Assembly: GCF_012863495.1 (NCBI RefSeq)
Contig: NZ_JAAVJL010000001.1
Location: 372,001 to 436,000 of the forward strand
From: Pseudanabaena yagii GIHE-NHR1
Lineage (GTDB): Bacteria > Cyanobacteriota > Cyanobacteriia > Pseudanabaenales > Pseudanabaenaceae
DNA length: 64,000 nt
Reading direction: 5' to 3'
In this document: positions 61,363 to 64,000 of the stretch, piece after piece
Layout of the letters: each line of letters starts with the position of its first letter
Position numbering within the stretch: position 1 is the stretch's first letter
Notes under the pieces: model-generated
The model's input: the letters and a program-made list of their open reading frames with translations, nothing else
What the model was told of the DNA's origin: nothing
Database searches by the model: none
Position numbers and translations under genes: made by a program

Positions 61363-61447
61363 CGGAGAGAGAGGGATTCGAACCCTCGGTTGCTTTCACA
61401 ACATTCGATTTCAAGTCGAACGCATTCGACCACTCTGCCATCTCTCC
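61363..61447 (-). tRNA. trnS-UGA: tRNA-Ser (anticodon TGA)
   Basis: On the minus strand the acceptor GGAGAGA pairs with TCTCTCC, the anticodon arm CGACTTGAAATCG has TGA in its loop, a long variable arm (class II) follows, and the T arm GAGGGTTCGAATCCCTC is standard. The CCA end is not encoded. It serves codons UCA and UCG (wobble). serS in this window charges it, though not adjacent. Confidence 0.97.
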
Positions 61448-61754: not shown

Positions 61755-62885
61755 TTATGCCTTAACCGCAGACATCGACAAGGTGTAATAACCTAGCTGA
61801 TTAGGAACTCTTTCCCACTTACCATCTAGCTTGCCCTTAGACAGGTTTTTGGTAACACGATCCTTGGCTTGGCGGAAATTCTCAACCGAAAGATCGCCAT
61901 ACAAAGCCTTGACGACGCTATCAGCATTAACGAACTCACCCTTACGCTCTTGTAAAACCTTCTCAATCGCATCGGTTAAAGTATTACCTTGATAAAGAGG
62001 ACGGAAAGCCAAGGAGCTAGAACGACCAGATTTTTTGGGCTGAGCAGCTTTGGATGCCGCAGCCTCAGACTTTTTTGCTTTAGCAGGAGTCTTAGGTGCA
62101 GCAGCTTTAGCAGTAGCTTTAGGAGCCTTGGTAGCCTTGGCAGCAGCTTTAGGAGCCTTGGCAGCAGCTTTAGGAGCCTTGGCAGCAGCTTTAGGAGCTT
62201 TCTCTACCTTAGCCGCAGGAGCCGCAGCCTTAGCCGCACCTCTACCTCTCTTGATGGTTGATGTAGGAACTGTTTTCAAACTTTCGAGGGAAAGTGTGTA
62301 GTAACCGAGCTGATTAGGAACACGCTTCCATCTATTTTCACCTTTACCCTTCGATAGGTTCTTAGTGACACGTTCTTTGGCTACACGGAAAACAGTTTCA
62401 GGGAGATCTCCATAAAGGATATTGACTACATCATCTGCATTAACTGCTTGTCCTTGGCGCTCATTCAAAATCTTTTCGATCGATTCTGTCAGGGTTAGTC
62501 CTTCGTAAGCAGGACGAGTTGTCAATGAACCCCGACGATGTCCTCTTCCTTTTCCTTTAGCAGCAGGTGTGGCGGCAGGAGCTGCTTCAGGTTTAGCGGC
62601 GGCTTTGGGTTTACGACCTTTGGTAGGGGCGGCTTTGGGAACTTCAGCAATTACGGGAGCAACTACAACAGGAGGAGCAACTACAGCTTCTTTCTTTTTA
62701 CCTTTGGCTTTAGGAGCTTCGGCAGGGAGGCTGCCAAGGAGGGCTTCAACGTGAGCGAGTTGAGCGCGGGCTTGAGCGACTTTATCTTCATATTCTGCGA
62801 GGAAACCTTGCAAATGGGATTGCAAAGCTTGTAAAGACGCGCCAAAACCATCTGGCTGTAGACTTACAGGTAGATCTATACTCAT
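61755..62885 (-). CDS. Histone-H1-like protein with duplicated domain and Ala/Lys/Pro linker
   Basis: A 376-residue protein. Residues 1-54 are helical and coiled-coil-like (LQGFLAEYEDKVAQARAQLA). Residues 120-200 and 291-370 are two copies of one domain of about 80 residues, each with ESIEKIL/DAIEKVL, V-NADDVV/NADSVV, ILYGDL/ALYGDL, RVTKNLSKGK and RVPNQLGYYTLS. The copies are 55-60% identical by eye. A Lys/Ala/Pro linker (about 205-285) includes the heptad KAPKAAA repeated several times (a 21-bp tandem repeat in the DNA, 62139-62200). The linker resembles histone H1 tails, suggesting nucleic-acid binding, but this is inference. The repeated domain is not one I can name; it looks like a small winged-helix or HARE-HTH-type domain. 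Single-gene unit. Confidence 0.85.
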   Translation of the reverse strand: MSIDLPVSLQPDGFGASLQALQSHLQGFLAEYEDKVAQARAQLAHVEALLGSLPAEAPKAKGKKKEAVVAPPVVVAPVIAEVPKAAPTKGRKPKAAAKPEAAPAATPAAKGKGRGHRRGSLTTRPAYEGLTLTESIEKILNERQGQAVNADDVVNILYGDLPETVFRVAKERVTKNLSKGKGENRWKRVPNQLGYYTLSLESLKTVPTSTIKRGRGAAKAAAPAAKVEKAPKAAAKAPKAAAKAPKAAAKATKAPKATAKAAAPKTPAKAKKSEAAASKAAQPKKSGRSSSLAFRPLYQGNTLTDAIEKVLQERKGEFVNADSVVKALYGDLSVENFRQAKDRVTKNLSKGKLDGKWERVPNQLGYYTLSMSAVKA

Positions 62886-63048: not shown

Positions 63049-63076
63049 AGAGAGGGTGGCTGAGCCACCCTCTCTT
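63049..63076. terminator. Terminator of the small gene at 63076-63339
   Basis: GAGAGGGTGGC and its complement around TGA, overlapping the stop codon on the minus strand. Confidence 0.7.
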
Positions 63077-63339
63077 TATTTCTTTAGGTCTAACAGAAAT
63101 CTGGCTTCAGCAGCGCGATCGCTGTTAGGATATCTCTCTAGTAGCCTTTGTAAATAGCTGGGTTGCTCACTGAGAAAGAAGCTAGAAAATAGTAAATCAT
63201 CGATATAAGGACTTTGAGGAAATTTGACCTGTAACTCGGTGATAATGCTATCGATTCGTCGCTGGTAGTCAGAGAGCATACTCTTTTCCCGTTGTTCGTA
63301 ATCTTGATAAGAGTAGCTACGTCTACGGCGTTGTTGCAT
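63076..63339 (-). CDS. Hypothetical helical protein
   Basis: An 87-residue Arg- and Gln-rich protein starting MQQRRRRSYSYQDYEQREKS, then DYQRRIDSIITELQVKFPQS and LLERYPNSDRAAEARFLLDL. The last segment looks like a TPR helix (YPNSDRAAEARF). Function unknown; the next upstream gene is on the other strand. Confidence 0.6.
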   Translation of the reverse strand: MQQRRRRSYSYQDYEQREKSMLSDYQRRIDSIITELQVKFPQSPYIDDLLFSSFFLSEQPSYLQRLLERYPNSDRAAEARFLLDLKK

Positions 63340-63394
63340 AAAAAGGGGAAGAGAAGGTAAATTAGATAAAAATCAGGAGATGGAGTCCCAGCAA

Positions 63395-64000
63395 ATGACA
63401 CAGAAACATGAGATCCGCAACTGGACAGAGTATAACGCAGGGCTAAAACAAAGAGGAAGCCTGACTTTTTGGATGAGCGAAGAAGTAATTGAAGGATGGT
63501 TAAATCAAACATTAAGTGGCAAACGGGGAGCTTCCAAAGATTACAGTGATATAGCAATAGCGACATTTATCACGGTCAAAGCGGTATATCAGCAAGCAGG
63601 AAGACAAACGCAAGGACTGTTAGAGTCAATATTTGCCTTGATGGGAATAGATTTACCAGTACCAGACCACAGCACCGTGTCAAGACGGACAGCAAGTTTA
63701 AGTGTGACCTTACCAGTAATCCCGAAACAGGGAGCAGTGCATGTAGTAGTTGATTCGACAGGGATCAAAGTATACGGCGAAGGGGAATGGAAAACACGGC
63801 AGCATGGAATTAGTAAGAGACGGACATGGCGCAAATTACACCTAGGAGCCGATGAATCAACAGGAGAAATACTGGCTGCGGTCGTCACCACGAATGATTG
63901 CCACGATGGAGAAGTACTCGCCGATATTCTCGATGCGATTGATGCTGAAATTGCTCAAGTTTCCGCAGATGGAGCTTATGACCATCGTCATTGTTATGAC
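63395..64000 (+). CDS. IS5-family transposase (cut by window end)
   Basis: At least 202 residues from ATG 63395 run to the window end without a stop. It reads MTQKHEIRNWTEYNAGLKQR, then FWMSEEVIEGWLNQTLSG, DHSTVSRRTASLSVTLPV, VVVDSTGIKVYGEGEWKTRQ (first catalytic Asp), and ILDAIDAEIAQVSADGAYDH (second catalytic Asp). This is an IS5-family (ISL2/IS1031-type) DDE transposase, distinct from the dead one at 13883. A GGAG lies 8 bp upstream of the ATG. It appears intact so far; the right end and any target duplication lie beyond 64000. Confidence 0.88.
   Translation, partial: MTQKHEIRNWTEYNAGLKQRGSLTFWMSEEVIEGWLNQTLSGKRGASKDYSDIAIATFITVKAVYQQAGRQTQGLLESIFALMGIDLPVPDHSTVSRRTASLSVTLPVIPKQGAVHVVVDSTGIKVYGEGEWKTRQHGISKRRTWRKLHLGADESTGEILAAVVTTNDCHDGEVLADILDAIDAEIAQVSADGAYDHRHCYD

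Follow-up and report, generated by a model that had tools for sequence, protein, structure and literature searches.

A Pseudanabaena protein with two predicted winged-helix domains on a Lys/Ala/Pro linker: a candidate DNA-bridging nucleoid protein of cyanobacteria

Introduction

The bacterial nucleoid proteins H-NS, MvaT, Lsr2 and Rok are described as sharing an N-terminal oligomerisation part, a flexible linker and a C-terminal DNA-binding domain; in H-NS, MvaT and Lsr2 an acidic N-terminus is combined with a basic linker and DNA-binding part, features that have been proposed for finding new members, and plasmid-borne relatives of H-NS and Rok are known (PMC6936261). In yeast Hho1 two globular domains flank a Lys-rich stretch, and the second domain is reported to hinder compaction (PMC10470511). 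In the bacterial protein Hc2, low-complexity basic repeats vary in number between strains (PMC2848022). For cyanobacteria, a paper of 2024 states that the nucleoid-associated proteins remain unidentified and proposes cyAbrB2 of Synechocystis as one of them (PMC11368403).

Here we describe a protein of 376 aa from Pseudanabaena yagii GIHE-NHR1 that combines features of these systems. Like H-NS, MvaT, Lsr2 and Rok as outlined in that source, it has a putative N-terminal oligomerising part, a flexible linker and C-terminal predicted DNA-binding domains, and its family includes plasmid-borne versions. It differs from them in that no sequence match was found, its winged helix appears to be of another family and is doubled, and its Lys/Ala/Pro linkers are much longer. 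With cyAbrB2, as presented in the 2024 paper, it shares a cyanobacterial host and an equal proposed role, although cyAbrB2 is AbrB-type and belongs to a different protein family.

Results and discussion

The gene and its parts

The window analysed is a stretch of 64,000 nucleotides, in which an open reading frame with an ATG start, 376 codons and a stop lies on the minus strand. The gene sits on a 3.69-Mb contig and is the sole gene of its kind in the genome. Its parts are as follows.

61755..62885, minus strand: whole gene, 376 aa (ORF list and genome search)
62733..62852, minus strand: N-terminal helix, aa 12-51, heptad-patterned; the first 60 aa are net -4 (full-length AlphaFold2 model, heptad test and charge count)
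62520..62723, minus strand: basic spacer, aa 55-122, predicted to be disordered (pLDDT below 50 for aa 53-116; charge count)
62604..62618, minus strand: GRKPK motif, aa 90-94, present in 24 of 25 distinct Pseudanabaena proteins
62292..62519, minus strand: predicted winged-helix domain 1, aa 123-198 (family profile boundaries and predicted structure)
62007..62291, minus strand: Lys/Ala/Pro linker, aa 199-293, net +21 (composition and predicted structure)
62133..62198, minus strand: 21-bp direct repeat in 3.1 exact copies, encoding the KAPKAAA heptad three times (repeat search, 100% match)
61779..62006, minus strand: predicted winged-helix domain 2, aa 294-369, nearly invariant within the genus (profile, predicted structure and pN/pS)
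61827..61886, minus strand: helix 3 (the recognition helix) of domain 2, aa 334-353, basic (predicted structure; 98% of 48 diverse copies have K or R at the K341 position)

The initial annotation, made from the sequence alone, had read this frame as a histone-H1-like protein in which two homologous domains are joined by a Lys/Ala/Pro linker built from a repeated heptad and preceded by a coiled coil, and these parts were borne out. The two domains are identical at 56 of 89 positions (63%, E 6e-41) and are set by the family profile at 76 aa each; the linker between them is 95 aa long, 67% of it K, A or P, with the exact 21-bp unit in the source strain. The N-terminal region has an a/d hydrophobic periodicity above that of 300 of 300 shuffles and is modelled as one helix, from which we infer the coiled coil. 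Within the basic spacer, the GRKPK motif resembles an imperfect AT-hook; the canonical AT-hook core RGRP occurs in none of 104 family proteins.

Predicted fold and its nearest relatives

Modelled by AlphaFold2 with 22 Pseudanabaena rows as input, domain 2 reached a mean pLDDT of 90.0 and a pTM of 0.80, with helices at model residues 16-26, 34-42 and 47-66 followed by a two-stranded wing. The full-length model has a mean pLDDT of 57.9, placing the two domains and the N-terminal helix at moderate confidence and leaving the remainder disordered, with pLDDT below 50 in the spacer and for aa 208-290. Structure comparison with the domain model gave the LACTB2 winged helix as the best match (Z 9.6, rmsd 3.6 over 78 residues), then Z-alpha domains up to Z 8.6 and, at Z 7.3-7.7, the archaeal chromatin protein TrmBL2, AspA (5k5q, Z 7.6) and linker-histone globular domains, including H1.0 (Z 7.5, 75 residues, rmsd 3.6). 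Because several Z-alpha domains match by fold, Z-DNA binding was considered, and it is not claimed here. Foldseek likewise ranked LACTB2 first, with cullin chains above H1.0, which came fifth, and the Rok DNA-binding domain sixth (5zuz; E 0.082 and TM-score 0.42, a likeness in structure comparison only); no Foldseek match reached E<=0.001, and we took the Wadjet/MukE-like and cullin matches to reflect a general winged-helix likeness. The predicted winged-helix class is well supported by these models, and a specific relative is not.

Sequence searches agree with the earlier view that the domain has no assigned family, since no curated Pfam or NCBIfam model was matched over its cut-off: in single-sequence searches all matches were sub-threshold and mostly low-complexity. 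The PDB searched by sequence returned ribosomal L19 chains alone, and with the profile a partial match of SpoIIAA type (E 0.005) came up beside the DEK protein (E 0.12), neither of which we take as evidence. Nor was a published description or function of this cyanobacterial family recognisable in the open-access literature, as judged from titles and abstract openings, again in line with the initial annotation.

The label histone-H1-like stands in part. As in linker histone H1, a predicted winged-helix domain is combined with a disordered region rich in Lys, Ala and Pro, and Hho1, as its source describes it, has an equal two-domain sandwich; layout, composition and fold class therefore fit the label. 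Membership of the H1 family does not, as the linker histone profile (PF00538) had no match at E<=1 in the source genome. Among 10 genomes examined, a lone sub-threshold match (E 0.955) lay in another genome, and true H1 membership was rejected on this sequence test. The protein further differs from H1 in its added N-terminal helix and in being bacterial, in cells without nucleosomes, and many winged helices other than H1 were matched too.

A distant relationship to HARE-HTH (PF05066) is possible on sequence comparison. Weak matches were found in 3 of 48 family members (best E 0.0021), and hhalign gave a probability of 75.6 over 27 of 76 columns, covering helices 1-2 only, with shuffled sequences (at most 1.9) as the sole control. 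Unlike a true member, the family fell under the Pfam cut-off in every test, by which membership was rejected: the HARE-HTH profile had no match in the source genome and, across 12 genomes with relatives, none over 25.9 bits at the place of this family.

Winged helices bind RNA or protein elsewhere, and the rank of LACTB2 and cullins above H1 counts against a DNA reading of the modelled domain. LACTB2-type nuclease winged helices may bind RNA, and the HARE-HTH family includes an RNA polymerase subunit. The protein could then be an RNA-binding or RNA-polymerase-associated factor, whose winged helices bind RNA or the transcription machinery and whose basic linkers hold RNA. The best structural match and the weak HARE-HTH signal would suit such a factor, as would weak BLACT_WH sequence matches in 4 of the 48 members (best E 0.0096) and the acidic spacers of one branch; the charge asymmetry and basic inter-domain linkers given below, however, fit DNA bridging at least equally, and no operon with RNA genes was seen, the neighbouring tRNA aside. 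We regard this reading as unlikely.

A basic face on helix 3 and the wing

The third helix and the wing are the usual nucleic-acid face of the winged-helix fold. In an alignment of 48 diverse domain copies, several helix 3 and wing positions besides the one at 98% are K or R in 56-77%, and columns 44-66, which span helix 3 and the wing, have a mean net charge of +5.1 against +0.6 in random column sets (0 of 20,000 as high), where the columns were picked after inspection of the alignment and their choice is a simple measure of our own. Helix 2 is net positive in none of the 48 copies. Taken whole, the domains carry little net charge (0 to +3 in Pseudanabaena), which counts against the DNA-bridging model proposed below. 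The basic helix 3 and wing of the predicted fold fit binding of DNA or RNA, without proving it, in keeping with the nucleic-acid-binding type of domain first proposed from the layout.

Charge layout, N-terminal helix and a model for DNA bridging

The charge contrast described for H-NS, MvaT and Lsr2, though not for Rok, recurs here. All 25 Pseudanabaena proteins combine an N-terminus of -3 to -5 with a spacer of +7 to +12 and a first-domain-to-end region of +18 to +30. In the wider family, an acidic first 60 aa together with a basic region from the first domain to the C-terminus is seen in 80 of 101 proteins, which are related rather than independent and exclude three fragments (L076, L091, L112), against 3 of 29 other ORFs in the window. 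Ahead of the first domain, 69 of these 101 proteins have a basic spacer and 30 an acidic one, so that an H1-like basic spacer is not a family constant. Of 55 multi-domain proteins, 51 have only net-positive links between their domains; in the other 4 not every linker is positive. The heptad pattern, scored by a simple periodicity measure of our own, beats at least 280 of 300 shuffles in 14 of 17 relatives and is not above shuffles in three (L074, L082, L095), of which L082 and L095 may have starts set too early; these three, like the 4 proteins with a non-positive linker, speak against the model below.

Codon usage sets the gene apart within the window. Its codon adaptation ranks first of 36 ORFs of at least 150 aa (0.708 against 0.583 expected, sd 0.018, with 0 of 2,000 draws as high), four str operon genes being the reference and window codon usage the source of the expectation. 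A five-gene reference gave the same ranking; its fifth member, later removed, looked to us like triosephosphate isomerase. Of 17 related loci that could be tested, 16 likewise have the homologous gene in first place; three more, each with under four ORFs, were left out. Such str-operon-like usage suggests high expression and abundance, as for a structural protein.

We propose a model, to which we give a probability of roughly one half, in which the protein is an abundant architectural nucleoid-associated protein that bridges DNA as a coiled-coil dimer carrying four winged helices. Its fit to the charge contrast that is a hallmark of bridging proteins, together with the heptad pattern, leads us to this dimer of four heads on basic straps, and dimerisation, DNA binding, bridging and abundance are all inferred. 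The N-terminal helices would pair two chains, and the resulting dimer would have four DNA-binding heads held by flexible Lys/Ala/Pro straps. These straps would neutralise DNA phosphates and let the heads of one dimer occupy separate duplexes, so that DNA would be bridged and compacted in the manner of H-NS, and doubling of the head would add avidity and lengthen reach. Family members with a single head would be built alike, and those borne on plasmids may coat the plasmid that carries them. This model agrees with the bridging layout suggested at the outset, in the predicted form of a heptad-patterned helix, flexible basic linkers and two C-terminal domains. As the second domain of Hho1 can mask the Lys-rich stretch, the strength of compaction by the 376-aa protein is not predictable.

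The same parts could instead form a tether, with the N-terminal helix holding a granule or other partner and the Lys/Ala/Pro and winged-helix parts holding the nucleoid, a role that has been suggested for AlgP and PhaF. AlgP is described as an alpha-helical N-terminus followed by a KPAA-repeat DNA-binding C-terminus and as required for even spacing of polyphosphate granules, and the 376-aa protein likewise has a helical N-terminus and K/A/P stretches; among its conserved Pseudanabaena neighbours (DedA/VTT, NIL-ferredoxin, amidase), however, no granule gene was recognised, and we consider a tether quite unlikely.

Conservation within Pseudanabaena and variation of the linker

All 26 of the 26 Pseudanabaena genomes searched have the gene, and in each it encodes the domain twice. 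On loci of sufficient length, its neighbourhood (a short upstream gene, a DedA/VTT protein, a NIL-ferredoxin and an amidase) is largely retained; the 20 related loci with record titles are mostly from Pseudanabaena. Comparison of 25 genes in 300 pairs gives pN/pS values of 0.022 in domain 2, 0.096 in domain 1 and 0.143 in the N-terminus; purifying selection on domain 2 is very strong. Presence throughout the genus, synteny and the value for domain 2 together mark a real gene.

The linker behaves differently. Its length ranges from 73 to 116 aa across the 25 Pseudanabaena proteins, and this, beside the low pN/pS of the folded parts, indicates that the domains are strongly constrained and that the strap changes by gain and loss of repeats. 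The exact 21-bp array was found in the source strain only, among the 25 Pseudanabaena genes compared; relatives have tandem units of 9 to 60 bp, and 5 of 24 have imperfect 21-bp arrays (58-86% match). As the unit differs by strain, the KAPKAAA heptad is a local form and not a family constant. The idea that length variation of the 21-bp repeat tunes reach thus keeps its variable linker length and loses its unit: different species carry different repeats, the exact array is not a conserved length-tuning unit, and the heptad was dismissed as one. Strain-variable repeats in a disordered Lys/Ala/Pro-rich region are shared with AlgP, PhaF, Hc1/Hc2 and BpH1, in which, however, they make up a tail or the greater part of the chain, whereas here they join two conserved folded domains.

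Several features lie around the gene. A co-directional ORF of 87 aa upstream (63076-63339, minus strand) is kept in 20 of 20 Pseudanabaena-type loci and has no Pfam match at E<=0.01; near it a DDE transposase (DDE_Tnp_1_5; 63380-64000, plus strand) runs off the window end. Just downstream of the gene lies a tRNA-Ser with anticodon tga (61363-61447, minus strand), the sole tRNA found in the window. Elsewhere in the genome, all three HU-family genes found (PF00216) are on contig C4 and none on the large contig C1.

Distribution, domain number and plasmid-borne relatives

A search with a single domain matched 116 of 388 genomes in the class, rising to 139 (55 of 160 genera) with a 48-row profile built partly from the same 388 genomes; in a phylum-wide sample, 35 of 244 genomes have the domain. 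Relatives carry one, two or three copies after the N-terminal part. In a tree of 75 rows, whose deep forks are weak, the Pseudanabaena copies fall beside single-domain relatives from their own family (support 85/91). Two other groups (96/96 and 99/98) hold the first and the second domains of another family together with those of Nostoc and Trichormus plasmids, a separation that suggests independent doublings of the domain.

Eighteen plasmid records match, from Nostoc, Trichormus, Gloeocapsa, Rippkaea, Halotia and Acaryochloris, of which 17 are annotated as hypothetical protein at the match and one is without an annotated feature there; all six plasmid-borne proteins that were translated have two domains. 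PHROGs and PADLOC gave no significant match, none of 24 pattern matches in viral contigs was confirmed and phages searched with one domain of a relative gave no match, so that a phage origin or defence role is unsupported.

The plasmid copies bear on a further alternative, a site-specific regulator or plasmid-partition adaptor spread from plasmids, like the winged-helix centromere protein AspA. AspA is among the structural matches. On Gloeocapsa pGLO7428.02 and on a Halotia plasmid, ParA/ParB are adjacent or close to the relative, and on Nostoc pNsp_a ParB is about 6 kb from it; but annotated Par genes flank just 3 of the 14 plasmid neighbourhoods viewed, and the Pseudanabaena gene is chromosomal, as judged from contig size, syntenic and found throughout the genus, with codon usage that suggests abundance. 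This alternative seems decidedly improbable to us.

Returning to DNA bridging, we tentatively put forward a wider view that we hold as possible rather than probable, in which the family would be its own lineage of major cyanobacterial chromosome-bridging proteins, coiled-coil dimers with one to three winged helices per chain. Pseudanabaena would have converged on the linker-histone plan of winged helix and Lys/Ala/Pro strap seen in yeast Hho1, the head would have doubled independently in at least two branches, and plasmid copies would be self-packaging factors. Widespread and experimentally tractable, the family is a second candidate nucleoid protein family in cyanobacteria, beside cyAbrB2, and would provide a bacterial example of convergence on the layout of linker histones. 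Its domain is defined and has conserved residues open to mutation, and its natural variants bear one, two or three heads and basic or acidic spacers, by which linker length, valency and charge could be tested as control knobs of DNA bridging.

Two variations in layout were noted among relatives. In L061 (aa 161-258), L080 and L127 (about aa 185-287), proteins of a Rippkaea plasmid and a relative, a further helix-turn-helix-like segment can be discerned by eye between the two domains. A distant relative of another family, L095, has a Lys/Ala/Pro spacer of its own, with KAPAAKA-type repeats, ahead of its single domain; this was apparently gained independently.
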